Shown piece after piece: positions 21,388 to 46,884 of a stretch of DNA of 64,000 nucleotides. How positions within the stretch are numbered: position 1 is the stretch's first letter; every line of letters starts with the position of its first letter. The stretch is from Sclerotinia nivalis (Eukaryota; Ascomycota; Leotiomycetes; Helotiales; Sclerotiniaceae): assembly GCA_029531795.1 (NCBI GenBank), contig JAPEIS010000003.1, positions 682,001 through 746,000 of the forward strand, written 5' to 3'. The translations under genes and the position numbers were made by a program. Below the pieces are notes generated by a model that saw only the letters and a list, made by a program, of their open reading frames with translations, was not told the DNA's origin and did not search any database.

Positions 21388-22038
21388 TCAGTAGAGTATG
21401 GAAGTGTCTTCATCCCCGTCCTCGGCTCTCTTATAGAGTATGGAAGTGTCCTCATCTCCGTCCTCGGCTCTCTTATAGATTATGGAAGTGTCCTCATCCC
21501 CGTCCTCGGCTCTCTTATAGATTATGGAAGTGTCCTCATCCCCATCCTCAGCTCTCTTATAGATTATGGAAGTGTCCTCATCCCCATCCTCAGCTCTCTT
21601 ATAGATTATGGAAGTGTCCTCATCCCCATCCTCAGCTCTCTTATAGATTATGGAAGTGTCTTCATCCCCATCCTCAGCTCTCTTATAGATTATGGAAGTG
21701 TCTTCATCCCCATCCTCAGCTCTCTTGTAGATTATGGAAGTGTCCTCATCCCCATCCTCAGCTCTCTTATAGAGTATGGAAGTGTCTTCATCCCCGTCCT
21801 CGGCTCTCTTATTATAGTTTGGGGAAAAATCTTCGTCCTCGGCACGTCGATAGATTATGGAGTGATCAGCTTCAGTCGACTCAGTTCCTGCTACAACACG
21901 GACTACAAGTCATGTTAGTGTCGGAAAGACGGAGAACCTTTGAGTTATCTTACCAGACTTGAAAGTGGTCCCCATGGGTGCTGCTGTCGCGACCAATAAA
22001 AACGGGAGAAGAGCAACGAGCTTGTTGATAGCAACCAT
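21388..22038 (-). CDS. RiPP precursor: secreted, kexin-cut repeat peptide precursor (dikaritin/UstA-like), 194 aa
   Basis: Exon 1 is 22038-21954 and exon 2 is 21887-21388. The 66-bp intron has donor GTAAGA, branch CACTAAC and acceptor TAGCAG, keeping phase 1. The ATG sits in a good context (CAAAATGG). Residues 1-20 form a signal peptide (basic start, hydrophobic LVALLPFLLVATAA). After a short leader the protein is a chain of segments ended by dibasic kexin sites: a first segment ending HSIIY-RR, a variant AEDEDFSPNYN-KR, then ten copies of the 14-residue unit AEDGDEDTSI(I/L)YKR, the last lacking KR because the stop follows Tyr. Acidic spacer plus a hydrophobic, Tyr-containing core between KR sites is the hallmark of UstA-type precursors, whose cores are cyclised by UstYa proteins. 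The divergent neighbour at 24158 is such a protein. The likely core is within TSIIY/TSILY; the exact mature peptide is not predictable. A linear kexin-processed secreted peptide is the main alternative. Confidence 0.92.
21391..21810 (-). repeat. Tandem array of ten 42-bp units inside the precursor gene
   Basis: Ten head-to-tail units of exactly 42 bp start at 21391, 21433, 21475, 21517, 21559, 21601, 21643, 21685, 21727 and 21769. Differences are few: Ile versus Leu before the final Tyr (units 1, 2 and 10 have Leu), and silent third-position changes. Inner units 4-9 share one set of silent states and the outer units another, which fits recent growth of the array from the middle by unequal exchange. 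A diverged eleventh unit lies at 21811-21849. Because 42 is a multiple of three, all frames stay open and long false ORFs appear on the plus strand. Confidence 0.95.
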
Positions 22039-24157: not shown

Positions 24158-25434
24158 ATGATGGAAAAATTGTACAAGAAACTTCGTTCTGCTAGAACTT
24201 CCACTTCTACTCACAGACCTCTTTACAAAGATGAGTCGTCCAACGAAGATCTTTCTACATCATCTGATGGATTGCTTGAATCCAAAGATAATGAAAGTTT
24301 AGACTTTGATGTCAGCCCACGGAATTATAAAAGGAGAAGTTTTATGTGGGGAGTTGTAATACATTCTTTTATATTTGTGACCTACACCGTTGGGCTTTTT
24401 GCTACAAGCAGCTTCTTCAGACACCCATCAGGGCCACGTACACTGGCTTACAGTAAGAGGAAGAACCATTCCGAGGCTCTTTGTTACAGATAACTGATAT
24501 TGTAAAATAGCACCAGCGGCGGAAGCTTTACAGTATGAGAAAGTCTTTTATAACGGCACGCTGTTCGCAAGTGGTCTTTACAAAGGAGATCCACGTCCAG
24601 TAAGCTTTCTAGTTGAAGTCTAGTACGGTAATATGTTGATTTATACCGACATATTTTATAGGAACTTGACCTTGCATGGCATAATCTAGTCGAAAACAAT
24701 AATATCCGAATCAGCAAAGAAGAGCTTGGTAAGTTAGGTAGAACTGCTCTTCCTCTTGCTGATGGCTCTGGTTATTTTGGCGAACTGAATGTTTATCATC
24801 ATTTGCATTGCTTGGTAGGTTTGAGACATCTCAAATTCTCGTCGCAAGGATGGAGTTGACATTTGGCAGAAATTCATAAGAGAGGTATTCTACGCCGAAT
24901 ACTATCCTGATGCTCAGGGACCAACGACAAAACTGCATGTCGGTAAGTTATCATGATGCTTCCTTCCTTTGAGTTCAAGGCGATACTGACATCGAGATAG
25001 ATCATTGCATCGATGATATTCGCCAAGCGCTGATGTGCCACGCGGATACCTCCATCACTACATTCAATTGGGAAGAAGGTATTAGACGACCTATGCCTGA
25101 TTTCGCTGGGTAAGTATCTCCAACTCCTCACCAATCCTCGAATATCGCAGAGCTAAAGCAAAATAGTTGGCATACATGCAATAACTGGCAAGTTCTCGAT
25201 GATTGGGCAACTGCCCGTGCTTTCTCAATGTTCGATCAGAAATCGTTGATTAATCCCACATATGGTGAGCCTTTTGTCTATTCATTGTTTGTATATCCTT
25301 GGATGAGGAACTAATGGACTTGAATGACAGGAATTGCATTCCCTAAGATCAATGGAAAGATTGAGTATACACCCCCTGGTAAGGAGGGCTTCCGTGTTGT
25401 TTGGCCGGAAGACTTGGGTCATGTTCATGTTTAG
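24158..25434 (+). CDS. UstYa-family (DUF3328) oxidase, 306 aa, seven exons
   Basis: Exons are 24158-24452, 24511-24599, 24662-24814, 24870-24942, 25001-25109, 25167-25264 and 25331-25434. All six introns are GT-AG, 55-66 bp, and the frame closes exactly (307 codons). A 60-residue cytoplasmic tail is followed by one membrane span (about residues 62-84) and a lumenal domain. The domain carries both diagnostic metal-site motifs of the family, HxxHC: HHLHC at 174-178 and HVDHC at 202-206, each in its usual context (HCLKFIREVF; HCIDDIRQALMC). UstYa proteins are copper-type oxidases that cyclise ribosomal peptides (ustiloxin, phomopsin, asperipin) or act in other fungal pathways. Its position next to a UstA-like precursor makes peptide cyclisation in the Golgi the natural reading. 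A second start codon directly follows the first (24161). Confidence 0.95.
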
Positions 25435-26957: not shown

Positions 26958-27443
26958 CTATGGATTTGACCTTCTTCTTCGCATGTGACAATCAAAAGGC
27001 GCAGTCCAAATCTTCTTGTCTCCCTTATCCGCCGATCTCCAAAACAATTCTTTTCCATCTGCCTTTATCTTAGCAGGCTTACCATCCACAACATAGTCCA
27101 CCGTAAATTTCGTAGTCGGTGATGTCTGTCTAGGATCTGTTTCGATGTCGTCAGGGGTGGCATTTATTGCTAGATGCTTTTTGCCTCCTATGCCGTTCTC
27201 GCAGTTGTTGTCGAGAATTTGGATGCTAAGAGGGAGGACTTCCTTGCAATTGATGATATATGCGATGGTGCATGTTCCTTCTTGTTCGGTGTGGCAATAG
27301 TTGTAGCCTACTTGTCTAGGAGTGAGAGATGTGAGGGGTAATGGTGTGGAAGCTGAGGAAGACTCTGGAATGTAGAGACCAAGAGTGAGGTGGGATATGC
27401 CAGCTAAGAAAACCGTGAAAGCGATGAGTTGTTGGCTGTACAT
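26958..27443 (-). CDS. Small secreted protein, candidate effector, 161 aa
   Basis: Starts at ATG 27443 with a clear signal peptide (MYSQQLIAFTVFLAGISHLT, cleavage near residue 22-24). The mature part has cysteines at the motifs GYNYC, GTCTIAYIINC, DNNC and the final PFDC, and a basic tail HMRRRRSNP. An N-glycosylation site (NAT) is present. No named domain is recognised. Architecture and short motifs match the gene at 25693-26355, so both may belong to one lineage-specific family of secreted proteins. Position beside the RiPP locus may be coincidental. Confidence 0.7.
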   Translation of the reverse strand: MYSQQLIAFTVFLAGISHLTLGLYIPESSSASTPLPLTSLTPRQVGYNYCHTEQEGTCTIAYIINCKEVLPLSIQILDNNCENGIGGKKHLAINATPDDIETDPRQTSPTTKFTVDYVVDGKPAKIKADGKELFWRSADKGDKKIWTAPFDCHMRRRRSNP

Positions 27444-28857
27444 ATTGAGATATGTTAGGTTGTGTGTGGCTGTTTTGTGATTTAAGTTGCTGGTTTTTGA
27501 AAGTGTGGAGTATCGTGCAGAAAATAAGAAGGGTTTGAGGTGGTGTTAGATTATTCGAGTTTGAGGATGTAACTTGATGGACGGGGAAACGCAAGTCTGT
27601 AAAACACCTCGACATGTTCTCTGGTGAGTAGCTCATGGAAATTAATGGTGACGTAGAGTCATGGCAATGATTCAGGGTTTTGTAATAATAATGGGTATCA
27701 GGGTTGAGGTCAGAGAGGAGTGAATCTGCTAGTTGTAGCCGTATCACTACAAAATACATATCTTAATATTCATAACTGCGACTAAGTTGGGACCGTTCTG
27801 GGAGCTAGCCATGACCACCCCTTCGGCAAATAACATCTCGGTACAAGTTACTAAAAATAGGATTGATGGTAACCTGCTTGCTTTTGTTTGGTACATAGAC
27901 AGGTATCTCCCAATAGCCAGCGCAGCCAAAGTATTCGATGGTCAGACCATCGGGTGGGCTGCATTTGATACCTGCGTGGTGCATTTGGTAAGCAAATTTC
28001 GTTCTTTCATATCGCAATCTCTCCATGCAGACCAACTGATTTCTTCCGCCTTAGGGTAACAGATACGAAAGCGTAAACGACCCTCGGCGTAAGGGTAATT
28101 TCAAATGATTTATGGTTCCATAGTTACTTATCCAGGCGCAGGGTAACCTTGATATTGTCTGGTCGCGCAGATCGTTTGCATGGATATTAAAACAATATAG
28201 CAGTGCTTGATGGATGATGGCACAATTCACACTCCGTAGACATCGGAAAGAATGCCTAGAAATACCATGGATCGTGAGTGACAAACATTTCCCAGGATGA
28301 TAGTTAAAACGGAAATGACATTCTCGCCGTCGGCTAGACCACAGTTGAAAACCCAACATCATATGAAGAACATGGCTGTGGGACTTTCCAACCCAATAAA
28401 CCGAGTCAGTCTTCTCGCGAATCGTATAAACGAATTCTGCAGTATCGATAACATCCACTCTCCACGCATCATGTCCCAAACATCAGCTCATAAAAAACGT
28501 CTTGCCCCCTATTCGCACGTGCCACAAAAAGTTTCCGACCCGTTTTGACAACCCCTGAATCCGCTCCACCAACGAGCCGCCCTCTCGGTATATATCCACT
28601 AATGAGAAACGAACACACTTTACCGACGACCTCTTTAGCGGAACTTTCTGCAAAGTGACCGCTTAAATATGTGAGATCTTACGATCCTCAGTTCCCGCTA
28701 TACTCGAATGTGGTAAGGTGGATGACAAATCCACCGGAATACAAACTCGCCTTCCAATTTGCAAGACAAGTTAAGCGGAAAATTTGCTGAGCTATTAAGT
28801 TCAGAAATTATCGATCGGTCGTCAGAAAGGAGGAATTTTGCGAAGAGATCATCAATC
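27444..28857. other. Intergenic region, no trusted gene
   Basis: A minus-strand open frame at 28051-28479 begins at TTG rather than ATG and shows no domain, so it is not called. Otherwise short frames only. The right end contains the promoter of the methyltransferase. Confidence 0.4.
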
Positions 28858-30367
28858 ATGGAGATGAATACCGAACCAAAGGTGATTGCTGCACCAATTT
28901 CATACATAGTTGAGGAATTGGGCTCTTATGTGGATGCAAGAGAACCGGAACTAGATGTGAGTGTGCTTTCCATGGAATAAGATGCTCGAGTGTGAAGATT
29001 AATCAAATTGGAAGTCTGGATCTGATATGGATTCTGCTCTTGGTAGAATGAGCTTGAGGTAAAGATAACAGATACTGGAGCTTTAAAATGTATTTAACGA
29101 CACATGAAGGAGTTCCAATTTCACTGTCGAATCGGAGTTATACCAACATATCGAAGAAAATGGAAGAACTTATCATCGTTATAAGCATGGTCGTAAGTGG
29201 TTCCTTGGAAGATACATTCCTATAACGGAAACTGAACATTCATCCAACAGAATATCCGCTACCGAATGATGCAGTATGTCTGGTAATGTAACGTGGGAAT
29301 AGCACTAGCTGATAAAACGTGCGACATTCAGCTAGAACAATATAGGCTTGGTACTTGCTCTTGTATCGCCCGTGTTGAAAAATGACCAATCCTGATACTC
29401 ATCTAGAATTTCAACACAGGTTACTGCGTATGACTATCGACGGAAAGTTATTTGTGTCACCGATAGACACAGATCGTCCAATAAATGTGCTAGATGTTGC
29501 CACTGGTACTGGAATTTGGGCGGTTGAATTTGGTAATTTCTCAGATTTTGAAATGATAAATTTTTAACGATATGTAGCCGATGAATATCCTCACTCAACG
29601 GTATTTGGTACTGATCTTAGCCCCATTCAGCCGCACTAGTAGGTATTTAGAGGTCAATCTCTAAATCCTCCGAAGATCACTAACCTGGAACTAGTGTCCC
29701 CACAAACTGCTCGTTCCGGATCGAAGACGCCGAAGATCCTTGGACTTTTGACGATCTTAAATTCGATCTGATCCATGGACGCGTCTTATTATCCTGCTTT
29801 CGCTCCCCGAAGACCGTTTTCGCATCTGCGTTCCAGGCTCTCAAACCAGGGGGATACCTTGAGCTTCGAGATCCAATCTTTCCCTTTAGATATGCGTCCC
29901 CGCCTCCTGAAGACTGTGCGTTGGTAAAATGGAATAATATGATAGTAGAAGCTAGTACGAAGACTGGAAGACCATGGACAAATGGAGCATATTACAAGCA
30001 GTGGATGGAAGAAATCGGCTTTGTTGACATTGTGGAGAGAAGGGAGTTTGCACCCATGAGCCCATGGGCAAAAGGCCAGAGAAATAAAGTCTTGAGCGTA
30101 TGGGTACAGAAAAATGTTTTGATGGGTCTGGAAGCGCTGAGTATGGCCTTATTCACAAGAGTTTTGGGAATGAAAAAAGAGCAGGTGAAAGAGTTGTTGG
30201 TAGGAGTGAAAGCAGACATCGAAAACACAAGGATACATTGTTACTCAGAAGGGTTAGTAAGAGCTTCTTTCAATACCCCTTTTCCTTGTGCTGAATGAAA
30301 CGATCAGCTAACGTACGTCGCATCCAGAGTCCTAGTGTACGGTAGAAAGCCGGAGGGGAATTCCTAG
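28858..30367 (+). CDS. SAM-dependent methyltransferase of the TAM/LaeA-like type, 349 aa, nine exons
   Basis: Exons: 28858-28956, 29015-29058, 29113-29192, 29251-29273, 29332-29350, 29407-29532, 29578-29638, 29695-30252 and 30328-30367. The frame closes over all eight introns (350 codons). Order of features: a short acidic N-terminus, the family signature ENGRTYHRYKHG, the loop YPLPND, then FQHRLLRMTIDGKLF. SAM motif I follows (VLDVATGTGIWAVEF), then GTDLSPIQP and the post-II segment LKPGGYLELRDP. The end VLVYGRKPEGNS is the usual close of this family and is only reached by splicing the last intron. Members methylate small molecules or act as regulators like LaeA; many lie in secondary-metabolite clusters. 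It is 3.4 kb beyond the UstYa gene with two secreted-protein genes between, so a role in the peptide pathway is possible but unproven. Confidence 0.9.
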
Positions 30368-39408: not shown

Positions 39409-42140
39409 TTATTCAGCAATAGGACAATGATCGTAATTCCCATTGAAGTTATTCCCCCACCACTGCGGGAACGGCGCCGCGAAGCCACCGGCTCCAAAGA
39501 CAGCGAATGATAAGATGAACAAAACAGTGTAACTAGCACCGTCCCAGGCTCCGGTAATTAAATACGAATAATTCTTGAAGATACTCGGACGATAATTGCG
39601 GAGATAGAATTGGGTGAAGAATCCAGCAATCACTTGGCTGAAAATCACACAGGTTTGCGATTGATTGTAGGGAATGTAGCCGGCATATTGGATGAATTGA
39701 GGCATGTTGATTTCGGTTAGGGCAAAACCGCGGATTTTGGGGATGAACTATTTGGAAGAGTCTCGGTTAGTGAAAGGAGAAAGCGGGAAGGAGATTGGGG
39801 ACACTGACAAATACGACAATACGATGTGCCAAGACAAACGCGGCGCCGATAACCAGACCTAAGGGTACAATTGAATATTTGGCTCCGGATTTGTAAAGTT
39901 CCTTGGCCAGTGCCCACGAAGCTGCATTGGTGTTGAAAGCCTGAATTGAGGCGCCACTCCAGGAACTATTACCATTTCCGGTGGCAAGAAGTTCGCGGTT
40001 AGAGTTTATGATCGATATCATGACGACGTAATTGACAAAACCTCCTAGTACAGTACCATATATTTGAGTAAGAAACATGGTACGAGGAGGGATTTTGACT
40101 GGATTTATTGGTTAGTTCGTGGATACATATTGTAAGGGTAATGGTTACGTACGGTATTCGCCCAACTTGAGGTCATTCGAAAGATTGACGGTGTTGGCGA
40201 TGACATTATGCGACCAAGCAGCAAAGTACATGTTACCGACAGGGCGTCCAGGAAGCATTAGACCCGCCAACATCTTACTTAAGTTATTTGTGGCGATACC
40301 ATTTCCATAGCGAGCATATAGGAGATTACTCTGGTTTAACGTTAGAGTTTTAAATGCCACAAAACAGCTCAAGGGATATACATACCAAGGGAGCAATGAA
40401 ACATCCCAGCAGCAATGCAACAATATATGCCCAGACAGGAAGAGTGATATGCTCCTTGATAACGACCACAAGACCAAGAACAAAGCTGATGATGAGGATC
40501 CCAATGTACCACCACCATGGAGCCTCTTTATAATTTTTGGCCATGTGCGCATGATGTGGATCTTCGTATGTTCCTGCCTTTGCACTTTTGAATGCTCGGA
40601 CGACATCCCCGCCCCAGAATACAAAACAATGAGTGATTAGAGCACCAATCTAAAATTTTCAAAGTCAGTATCCCCGAACTTGTGAATGATGGTGGTAGAT
40701 TGAGACACTTACAGCAGCATTTGCCATGAACATAGCATACGCAAAACTTCCTGTCAGACTAGGATTACCATATTCTTCCAAAGCCGTCCTGTTCAGTATA
40801 CCATCGGAGAAGACTTGCCCGGTGGGATACCTCGAGCCATTTTCGGAACGAAGTTGTGTTGACATGAAAGGTTGCGCTTTTGCATCCCATGCGTTGGTAT
40901 AGTAGATACCGAGCATGGCGGCAAAACAGACGACGTATCCTGCGACACTATGGGCTTGTGTCTTGAGCGGAAGGGAAGTGTTGAAAGATGTAATCTACGA
41001 GTTCGCTCCAGTTAGTTCTTCTCTTTCATTTCAAACAACATACAATCGGGTTTTTGACTTACATATTGCCAATCAAACGACAGCGAGAAGAGTCCCAGTC
41101 CTTCATTATTCGTCGCACCTCCAAAGATATTGGTAAGTGTACTCGCCTTACTACCCGTGGCATTCATAGCAGCCAGACAAGGAATGGAAACAGAATTCAA
41201 CCATGGGAAAATATAAGCCGGAAGGAACTCATAAGCGGACATGCTTGCAAATGCATACCAGAAGTATCTGAGAGGCTTGGAATGTTTTAGATCTTGCCAG
41301 TGAAGTCCTTGTAAGGTTTTCACTGTGGGTAGTGTACTCCAGTATACGGATTCTGGGTGCCATACCATGATGGGACGAAGCATTCCGCAGAGACCGTAGC
41401 CGAAGAGACCGATGGAGATTACTGCTAAGATGACGGTGGTAGCGCTGAGAGGTATGCCATAGAAGAGATCTTGAGCCGCAAATACTGTGATGGTTTCGGC
41501 GGCATTGGAGGCTGATGTGGCAGTGATGGCGCAAATAGCGTGTTCTTTAAGATTCCATGGTCCATAGTTGAAGAATGAGATAATGCGAATATACATCGGT
41601 GGTTTACCCTGTCCACCCCTTTCTCTCCATCGAGCTTCAAATTTGTCGCCGCGGGGAAATACGTTTGCCCATGCCTTACCCAAGAAGTAGGCAATAAGAA
41701 CGATGAAAGTACCTTGGATAACACCTTGGGAGGTTGGTTTGAACTAAGTTCAGAGATTAGCTTTTGTTCATCCAAGCAGATATCTATTTACGACCCACCG
41801 AGTAAATCTGGTACATGACTGCCTGAAATCCTGAAAGCACAGTAGCTAGCACAATGCTACGGAAGCTTAAAGCAGGCTCTCCATCATCCCTTAGAGGCAA
41901 CAAGTGCGCAGCTGCATCCGCACCGGTAACAATAATAATATCATCGTCACTCTTGTCATCTCTACCGTTATCAGACAATTCTTTCGTCTCAATGTCTAGC
42001 GGATCTTTAGAGACCTCTCGTTTATCAGCCGAGATACGAAGCTTCTCGTCAATTTCCTGGTGTGTGGGGACGGCAATGACTTGGCCCTCAACAGGGTTGA
42101 ACGCCCCGACGACTGAGATGTCGGTATTGGCGCCTGGCAT
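39409..42140 (-). CDS. Oligopeptide transporter (OPT family) 1, 791 aa, seven exons
   Basis: Exons: 42140-41799, 41743-41063, 40994-40713, 40649-40386, 40330-40153, 40098-39809 and 39747-39409, all GT-AG, frame closed (792 codons). After an acidic cytoplasmic tail of about 90 residues, some 14-16 hydrophobic segments follow. OPT signatures include NYGPWNLKEHAICAI (usual NPGPFNxKEH), SLSFDWQY, ARYGNGIATNNLSKMLAGLM and PGRPVGNMYFAAW. The end FPQWWGNNFNGNYDHCPI is also typical. OPT proteins import tetra- and pentapeptides, glutathione or metal chelates by proton symport at the plasma membrane. A second, clearly different OPT gene follows upstream on the same strand. Confidence 0.93.
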
Positions 42141-44211: not shown

Positions 44212-46884
44212 TCAGTTCAAAGCATTGGCAGGTAAATTCCCCGGCGGGAAACATCTATCGACAGCCATCGCATTATTCCCCCACCAATTTGGAAACGTGG
44301 CGTTGGGGAGATTGAGACCAAATACCATGACCGTTTGCATGAGTTGAGTACCGCAATCGAGGCCGACTCCTAGGAGGTAATTGTACTTTCGGAACCAGAC
44401 AGGATGGTAGCGATAGACGTAACCCATGCTGTTTAATTGTTAGCTTTAAAATACCATAGAGGAATATTCCAATAAGAGGAGCGAGTGAGGTAAATGAAAA
44501 AAAAAAAAAACACTTACAAAAATACAGAGAAAGCAGCACTAGTAAACAGATTCGTTGTCTGGTATACCGGAAAGACAGTAGCACCATAGCAAATCAATGT
44601 AGGGTTGAATCTTTCCTCGATCTTCCAATGAGGTTTCCATTTATGGACGATAAAGGTTAAGATGACGAGTATGGGACCAAGAAAAAATCCATAGCAAATC
44701 CAAGAGTATATGGAACCGTGCCCGAAAAAAATCTTAGGACCGAGAACTCCCCAAATTACAGATAGGGAATAGTAATTGCGGGTCTTGACGGCATTCCAGG
44801 CTTGGGAGGCAACGGCGCCGGTTAGTTTTGGGCCTTCGGAGTCTATGATGAATCCTGGTGGTGGTCAGTTAGTTACAGTTTCGTTGAATAAAATGGAAGA
44901 GGACTTACTCATCATGCCGTAGTTGATGAAAGGGCCCAAAAGTGTGCCATACATCTGGCCTATAAACATCTCCGTTTCTGGGATCTTCATATAGAACCCA
45001 AACTTATAATCAGAGATCAAGTTGAGATTCTGCTCCAAGATCTGTCGACCGTAGACCATGCACGTAAGAACAGCCAGAGGTTTGCCCGGGAAAAGAGCTC
45101 CAGCGATCACCTCGGATAGATATTGCATTCCGACTTGCATATTGGCAATGCCCCAAAGTATTCCATTTGGAAATGTGAATATACATGAGATGACTGCAAT
45201 AACTATAAAACCCCTACATCAATCAATTAGCCGGTGACACATTGGTCTGAAAGGGGATACACTTACCACCAAGGAAGTTGCATTTCACCTCCATAGAGTT
45301 GACCAATGGCAAGTCCAGAGCAGATGAGCAACAAAATTGCATACCACCAATGCGGAACGCGAGGGTGTATTTCCATCAACTTAAGATAAGGATCATCATA
45401 ATTACTCCTTCTATTTCTAAAAGCATCTTTCATTCCCTGGTAAGCGGGTGCACCATACCACAGCACTGAGTATACCATGGCCCCAGTAGATGCAGCAAAC
45501 CCAAAGAAAAATTGAAGAGCATAAGATGCAGACCAATAGGGTGAAGAGTAAGCATCCATTGCTTCGTGATCCAGCGTGAAATCTGGTTTGAGTATTCGGG
45601 AAATATTATACTTGGCGCCGGTGTTATCCCACGTACCAGAGCCCATAGGGGCAAAGTTCAAAGCGTTGAGACTGTTGGTGAAATACAAAAGAGGGTAAAT
45701 CATCCAGCATGCTAGAATTGCACCCATGAATTGATTCGCATTTGCCCAGAGCGGTGTGTAAAGTGGTGAGAAAAAGGAAATATAGTTCCAATCCAAGCTG
45801 ATATCGAGAACTCCCTGGAGTGTTCATTAGTATGTGGTAATTGTCATCAAAATCATGGGAGCATACAAAGCCATTATATCCGGACCCCATCACATATGCT
45901 TTCCAATTACCGTGGCCAAAATAGCAAATCAGTGGGATGGAACTCAACATTGGAAAGATAACCGAAGGAAACCATTCATAGCAGAACGCGCAACATGCAA
46001 CAATAGTAAAGAATTTGAGAGACTTCTTCGTAACAGCCGGGTTTTTGTGCATGGCGTTGAACAGAGACACGTTTGGTAAAACTCCCGGATAGTAAATATT
46101 GGGAGGTCGAACGAGGATATCCCGAAAGAGTCCTGCAAATCCATAACCTATCATTTGGGTCGTGATGAGGAATAGAATTCCCCAACCAGCATTTATCTTG
46201 CGGCCATAGTATAATTCCATCGCAGAAAGTGGACCGAGACCGTACGCAGTGTAGCACTTATTATTATGATCAGTAAAAGGAACAACAAAGAGCCATGAAA
46301 TGTACTTACACTACCCCAATAAGCTACTACCACGAGAGCGTGTTCCTTTGCGTTCCATGGCCCCGGGTTAAGACTCCATTTGAAACCAAAGGTATTGAAG
46401 ACACGCTTTGGTAGGTAAGCGGCCATGCCAGTGCCCATACCCCAAGACAGGAGTTGCACGGCATAACTCGTAAGGTTCATGGAATATGGCTTAAAGTAGT
46501 AAAATGAAGAAACTCCGCATCCAATAACCACCCAAAAAGTAGAACAGAACCAGAATCGGAACGTGAGGATTGGTTCCCTGCATTATGATCATAAGGATAG
46601 GTATAACGTTTGGGATTTGTTTCGGCATGCACTTACGTAGGGTCATTGTGCAGGTCAACAGTCTTGGCCAGCAAAGGGATAGGGTAATTTTTCAAACGAG
46701 GGTCGATGACGACATCGTCTTCTCCAAGTACGATGAGCTTCTCACTGGAGATGTCCTGAAAATCGTTGGAGTCGAGAGCTTCGATCTCAATATCCGCAGT
46801 CTTCTTTTCGGAGACAGGGGATTCTGTGGAGTTTTGAGATGTAGAATCCCCCCGTTCTCGATGTACATCTATGGTATCCATCAT
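44212..46884 (-). CDS. Oligopeptide transporter (OPT family) 2, 770 aa, seven exons
   Basis: Exons: 46884-46637, 46577-46310, 46256-45867, 45814-45267, 45213-44909, 44854-44518 and 44428-44212, all GT-AG with closed frame. The frame opens three codons earlier at TTG, but the first ATG is 46884. OPT signatures: NPGPWNAKEHALVVVAYWGS, MELYYGRKINAGWG, SLDWNYISFFSPLYTPLWA, GGEMQLPWWGF, VLTCMVYGRQI, and the C-terminal FPNWWGNNAMAVDRC. The sequence is only distantly like the downstream OPT gene, so this is not a recent duplicate. The intron at 44517-44429 carries a run of about 14 bases of A on the plus strand (T in the transcript) right beside the donor. It would import short peptides or related compounds. 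Confidence 0.93.

Follow-up and report, generated by a model that had tools for sequence, protein, structure and literature searches.

A minus-strand repeat gene beside a UstYa gene in Sclerotinia nivalis as a candidate dikaritin-like RiPP precursor

Gene content of the locus

The stretch of DNA analysed here, hereafter the window, comprises 64,000 nucleotides of the genome of the snow mould Sclerotinia nivalis (assembly GCA_029531795.1, contig JAPEIS010000003.1, positions 682,001 to 746,000 of the forward strand). Read on the minus strand from position 22038 to 21388, and with one intron removed, it encodes a predicted secreted protein of 199 residues (Table 1). The protein opens with a hydrophobic, signal-peptide-like stretch, recognised from its sequence and hydropathy only (9-residue peak 2.96), which is followed by a short pro-region, a unit ending in HSIIY-RR, a unit AEDEDFSPNYN-KR, and ten further units. 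Of the two divergent units, the first has a different upstream part ahead of its HSIIY-RR, and the second keeps the AED start but not the SI[I/L]Y core, which counts against a RiPP reading. The ten-unit array was reported by TRF with a period of 42, 10.0 copies, 96% matches and a score of 723; each unit is 14 residues long with its KR. As in Kex2-processed repeat proteins (KEPs), similar units lie between dibasic sites, namely nine KR sites, whose DNA is identical across the nine KR-bounded units, in addition to the RR and KR of the divergent units. In the tenth unit the Tyr is followed directly by the stop codon. Tyr, a residue expected in the core of a dikaritin, is present in all ten units beside an Ile or Leu, and this neighbour is the sole residue that varies among them.

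An earlier note on this DNA had described a minus-strand array with a signal peptide and a single phase-1 intron, all of which are present in the sequence on that strand and at those coordinates. It counted ten KR-bounded units of 14 residues; the number stands, but the tenth unit lacks KR and two divergent units precede the ten. Likewise, the intron that it placed at 21888-21953 has the correct donor (21953) but an acceptor that is probably misplaced by 15 nt, since the first AG after the branch-point-like CTAAC motif ends at 21903. Acceptors at 21891 (63 nt) and 21888 (66 nt) would also keep the frame, and an intron of 51 nt rather than 66 nt is the more likely on the basis of general knowledge of fungal introns.

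Table 1. Features of the precursor gene, the adjacent UstYa gene and a neighbouring methyltransferase exon (window coordinates)
Feature	Position	Strand	Description
Precursor exon 1	21954..22038	-	signal-peptide-like MVAINKLVALLPFLLVATAA, then start of the pro-region; 85 nt
Precursor intron (more likely form)	21903..21953	-	phase 1, 51 nt, GTAAGA...CTAAC...TAG
Precursor exon 2	21388..21902	-	the two divergent units, the ten-unit array and the stop codon
Divergent unit 2	21805..21843	-	AEDEDFSPNYN-KR
Ten-unit array	21391..21804	-	AEDGDEDTSI[I/L]Y; KR after nine, stop codon after the last
UstYa/DUF3328 gene	24158..25434	+	seven exons, 306 aa, intact; hand assembly
UstYa exons 1-4	24158-24452, 24511-24599, 24662-24814, 24870-24942	+	
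UstYa exons 5-7	25001-25109, 25167-25264, 25331-25434	+	
SAM methyltransferase exon (Methyltransf_23)	29684..30298	+	upstream frames carry more of the gene

A UstYa gene is transcribed divergently from the precursor gene, with 2,119 bases between the two starts. Two stretches of the window, and no others, were hit by the UstYa profile (PF11807) in the genome search, and the assembled protein, which places a UstYa near the precursor as expected of a dikaritin, matches the profile at E 9e-56. It is identical over its full length to OCU04_003431 of S. nivalis. Two HxxHC motifs are present, HHLHC at 174 and HVDHC at 202. Such motifs are described as the suspected active site of UstYa-type proteins, and UstYa/DUF3328 has been proposed as the class-defining enzyme of dikaritins (both from the accessible text of PMC12048977). 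In an AlphaFold model (mean pLDDT 79, pTM 0.63) both motifs lie on confident helices, 171-186 and 199-216, and a helix at residues 59-86 is a probable membrane anchor, the protein being predicted to cross the membrane once. Both motifs occur in 46 of 54 database hits, the S. nivalis protein itself counted. In an alignment of 37 of these 54 hits, proteins of Botrytis convoluta (BCON_0364g00090), S. borealis (SBOR_5203), Monilinia laxa (EYC80_000824), B. porri, B. elliptica and M. fructigena share 75-85% identity with it, the next relative being an Aspergillus niger protein with 56% identity. Its nearest paralogue in the genome, on contig C6, is 40% identical, and no array was found at that place. 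Solved structures provided no credible relative by sequence (one hit, E 0.3), and none of 68 matches by fold reached E <= 0.001. The earlier note had proposed a UstA- or dikaritin-type architecture, and the complete UstYa gene 2.1 kb away supports this more strongly than was the case there.

Elsewhere in the window, 102 stop-to-stop ORFs of at least 100 aa were found, and the 66 retained by a greedy overlap rule were scanned against Pfam together with two shorter pieces. The names returned include a methyltransferase, a sugar transporter, an AMP-binding enzyme, pieces of OPT transporters, a piece of a GNAT acetyltransferase and a fungal protein kinase. Genes made up of many short exons are poorly caught when open frames are scanned with Pfam (the first exon of UstYa was missed), and the absence of tailoring genes therefore rests mainly on whole-genome family searches. 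These gave no match in the window to tyrosinase, a gene expected in clusters of the ustiloxin/phomopsin branch, to FMO-like proteins or to P450s (92 of 228 P450 candidates scored). On the same contig, about 0.75 Mb separates the precursor from the nearest tyrosinase. For the S41 peptidase, also looked for as a mark of that branch, the single match in the genome is on contig C8, with none in the window or in the pieces scanned with Pfam. The methyltransferase is a possible but unproven cluster member; nothing links it, the sugar transporter, the AMP-binding enzyme or the OPT transporters to the peptide, and we do not count them as part of a cluster. The OPT oligopeptide transporter exons lie on the minus strand at 39770-41743 and 44868-46582, 14-21 kb from UstYa, and probably represent two neighbouring genes. 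A small secreted-looking ORF with several Cys and without a Pfam match is located between UstYa and the methyltransferase (26961-27545, minus strand).

Coding strand and fate of the repeat protein

Taken alone, the array is weak evidence for a gene, because random repeats are often open and dibasic: in 20,000 random 42-nt repeats of the same base composition, 51% had at least three open frames and 26% had a dibasic site within an open frame. In the real array three frames are open, one on the minus strand and two on the plus strand, and it is overlapped by two ORFs of the plus strand, 261 and 197 aa in length. Since 42 is divisible by three, chance alone would be expected to leave several frames open, and the repeat might be a non-coding minisatellite, or part of a plus-strand gene, with an accidental minus-strand reading, a view with which the failure to find the precursor among database proteins would agree. 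The pattern of substitutions argues otherwise, although it comprises six variable columns only. Five of the six fall at third codon positions of the minus frame (one-sided binomial p = 0.018, which is modest because there are so few columns, the repeat copies being non-independent as well). In that frame five of the six variable codons are synonymous and the sixth is the Ile/Leu swap, whereas in each of the two open plus-strand frames none is synonymous; the third plus-strand frame likewise has five silent codons and one changed, yet contains 10 stops. The upstream sequence points the same way. The 300 minus-strand bases upstream contain one signal-peptide-like ATG, against an expectation of about 0.13 from the window's own rate (0.42 per kb per strand), and the 493 plus-strand bases preceding the array contain none. 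Considering also the in-phase intron with its branch-point-like motif and the UstYa neighbour, we regard an accidental minus-strand reading as very improbable. That larger false ORFs on the plus strand conceal the gene, as the earlier note had it, is borne out by the failure of both open plus frames in the substitution test. The frequency of arrays was controlled with shuffles and with the rest of the window. No run of at least two similar dibasic-bounded units appeared when the window was shuffled by a first-order Markov model to a total of 1.28 Mb, a lenient control because shuffled DNA lacks natural tandem repeats, and the rest of the window yielded no second array.

A genuine minus-strand gene leaves several possible fates for its product. 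It could be secreted uncut, as an acidic repeat protein with a role in the wall, at the surface or in interaction with a host, to which its signal-peptide-like start and very acidic repeats would be suited. A dibasic site after every unit but the last, invariant in DNA at the nine KR sites, would be hard to explain in such a protein, and we find this fate scarcely credible. A more serious alternative is that the protein is processed by Kex2 and that the peptides are secreted linear and unmodified, like pheromones or other signals, while UstYa serves another substrate. Linear products may indeed be common: a 2020 survey of 1,461 strains reports, in its accessible part, 7,878 KEPs, of which 1,758 are near a DUF3328 gene and 6,120 have none within 15 genes (PMC7329392). 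The absence of a tyrosinase match from the window would also be in keeping with linear peptides. However, the divergent UstYa gene 2.1 kb off is the only UstYa match in the window, the window yielded no second array, and Tyr has been kept beside Ile/Leu in every one of the ten units. Linear peptides therefore appear unlikely to us, though less so than an uncut protein, and processing followed by UstYa-dependent cyclisation is the reading that we prefer.

Relatives in databases, in the genome and among known systems

No credible homologue of the full-length precursor was found in the protein database, in a search that scored the 7,991 candidates sharing most words with it. The sole hit, P0001, was rejected as an unrelated low-complexity protein with an acidic repeat by chance. 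With residues 1-76, none of 20 candidates reached E <= 10. Among bacterial and archaeal contigs the pattern matched 59 times but no relative emerged, which is unsurprising for a fungal gene, and no paralogue was found in the S. nivalis genome, the search returning the gene itself and one hit at E 0.4 which was taken as chance. These protein searches need shared five-residue words, and distant relatives would escape them; an identical database protein should surface, as UstYa did, so that the precursor gene appears to be unannotated. The pair, with UstYa present in the database and the precursor not found there, shows how such precursors escape annotation and agrees with the earlier note in that the gene is easily missed. 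For the repeat unit, which that note had proposed to search for, the protein database gave no credible match, and pieces of the unit were not found in a text search of the papers available.

In the genome as a whole, 45 UstYa matches were grouped by hand into 24 places, including that of the window. We examined 20 kb around 10 of the 23 others, and three more (L003/L005, L007 and L008) in 3-kb loci only. Dibasic-bounded arrays were present at four of the ten, on contigs C4, C6, C7 and C9, at 0.7-4.5 kb from the UstYa matches, which speaks for a UstYa-linked precursor in the window as well; the other six had no accepted array and neither had the three 3-kb loci. A nearby UstYa therefore need not imply a repeat precursor. 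Two candidate arrays were dropped, one consisting of two low-complexity units (L018 6302-6367) and the other being a weak hit under relaxed settings (L022 9038-9082).

The array on C7 (L027 6300-6800, minus strand, near 1583700) is located beside several UstYa matches and a tyrosinase, in what looks like a fuller dikaritin-like cluster, and its units read Asp-Glu-Ser-[V/I]-[V/I]-Tyr-Pro-Asp-Tyr, a motif resembling that of the window. The two arrays share the 42-nt period and the dibasic borders, with Asp-Glu-Ser-[V/I]-[V/I]-Tyr in three of the C7 units. Unlike the window's array, that of C7 has only about four units, which carry the extra Pro-Asp-Tyr and are bordered by RR in place of KR, and its cluster includes a tyrosinase. 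In a text search of papers for SIIY and four strings from the C7 units, SIIY was the only string present among the matches listed, and none of the titles listed concerned fungal peptides. The remaining arrays are of other kinds. KR-bounded units starting with FVPTVVPYADY lie about 3 kb from UstYa matches on C4 (L021 5100-5800, minus strand, near 1048000), and KR-bounded EPELSYVNS units, divided between two reading frames, lie about 4.5 kb from UstYa matches on C6 (L025 4200-4700, minus strand, near 2617300). On C9, dibasic-bounded GFFNNGD units without Tyr occur near UstYa matches (L032 3050-3300, plus strand, near 75800), where any cross-link would have to involve a residue other than Tyr. 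The search for kexin-type P-domains gave a single location in the genome, on contig C5. For 5.8S rRNA a single match was reported (L014 1501-1626, on C2 near 2566200); it scores below the family cut-off, and the rDNA array seems to be absent from the assembly.

Among characterised systems, asperipin-2a offers a close parallel in gene content. Its four-gene cluster is described as containing a precursor, aprA, and one UstY homologue, aprY, with no tyrosinase, and its Tyr side chains as linked to beta-carbons (PMC6514808, in the accessible text). The window locus resembles it in combining a precursor with a single UstY homologue in the absence of a tyrosinase, and differs in the core; the transporter and the isoflavone reductase of the asperipin cluster were not named by Pfam in the window pieces scanned. 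Ustiloxin B, with ustA, ustYa/ustYb and ustQ, and the phomopsins are similar in another respect. According to the same source, Kex2 is believed to cleave UstA into peptides of 13-14 residues before cyclisation by a tyrosinase homologue and UstYa/UstYb, and the window has KR-bounded units of comparable length, 14 residues with KR. The ustiloxin/phomopsin motif, as given in the available part of PMC6339444, also has acidic residues ahead of the core. In that motif, however, Tyr stands before Ile, whereas the window has Ser-Ile-Ile/Leu-Tyr, which counts against membership of this branch, and unlike the ustiloxin and phomopsin clusters the window has no tyrosinase, S41, FMO, P450 or second UstY match.

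The KEP survey provides a broader frame (PMC7329392, likewise from its accessible part). Tyr is reported in 65.6% of the repeats of DUF3328-linked KEPs, and is thus common but not universal. One of its types, G-5/P-1, is recorded from Sclerotinia, Botrytis, Rutstroemia, Aspergillus, Penicillium and other genera, has a profile that is Tyr-rich with several Asp, and apparently has 16 of its 35 members near DUF3328 genes. These genera are close to the distribution of the window's UstYa, and the precursor might belong to G-5/P-1, a likeness by description only. If the profile matches, the core type is already catalogued. The earlier note's suggestion of a new cyclic peptide family can accordingly be kept in part: neither the protein database nor the text of the papers searched yielded a credible match to the unit, but UstYa-linked repeat precursors are common and G-5/P-1 was compared from its description only. 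A study of S. sclerotiorum names a cluster containing a DUF3328 pair as possibly encoding a RiPP, and the window precursor is not described in its accessible portion (PMC6941272). In Venturia, dikaritin precursors are reported among candidates first taken as ordinary effector proteins (PMC9632046, from the part available).

Proposed product and its significance

The locus combines a precursor of this architecture, a minus coding frame better supported than its plus-strand competitors, and an intact, conserved UstYa. We read it as a tyrosinase-free module of two or more genes, like that of asperipin, for a Kex2-processed, UstYa-cyclised, dikaritin-like RiPP, with a probability of roughly 0.7. 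The minus-strand gene would yield a secretory precursor which, by analogy with ustiloxin and asperipin, Kex2 would cut after each KR; a carboxypeptidase may then trim the KR, so that each precursor could give as many as ten AEDGDEDTSI[I/L]Y peptides. UstYa would join the Tyr side chain oxidatively to a nearby residue with the loss of 2 H, and peptidases would afterwards remove the acidic part, both steps again being modelled on the known pathways. That no KR follows the Tyr of the last unit fits KR as a mere cutting site, and SI[I/L]Y is marked as the likely core by unit 1, which keeps HSIIY-RR while its upstream part differs. Since only the residue adjacent to Tyr varies, our guess is that Tyr is joined to the Ile two positions before it, the first and unvarying one in SI[I/L]Y. 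The earlier interpretation was thus largely right, with the intron corrected and ring formation presumed by analogy.

A bolder proposal can be made, which we offer tentatively and consider somewhat doubtful. A tyrosinase-free UstYa, conserved across Sclerotiniaceae, would close a small ring by joining the C-terminal Tyr to the upstream Ile of Ser-Ile-Ile/Leu-Tyr, in an order reversed relative to ustiloxin and phomopsin. The peptide would then represent a new dikaritin core family that annotation has overlooked, and the Ser-Val/Ile-Val/Ile-Tyr units of C7 would be a second, tyrosinase-assisted branch of the same motif within one genome.

UstYa-linked repeat precursors being common, the type of system is known, and it is the peptide itself that appears to be new. 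The interest of the locus lies not in a new principle but in the new core, in the minimal module without tyrosinase, and in the gap in annotation. UstYa matches occur at about two dozen places in this genome, several of them with very different arrays, and the peptide repertoire is probably under-counted. If the proposed reading is true, a precursor with one UstYa and no tyrosinase would make a minimal test case for UstYa acting alone, and the UstYa-made cyclic peptides would gain a distinct core, from a group of plant-pathogenic fungi.
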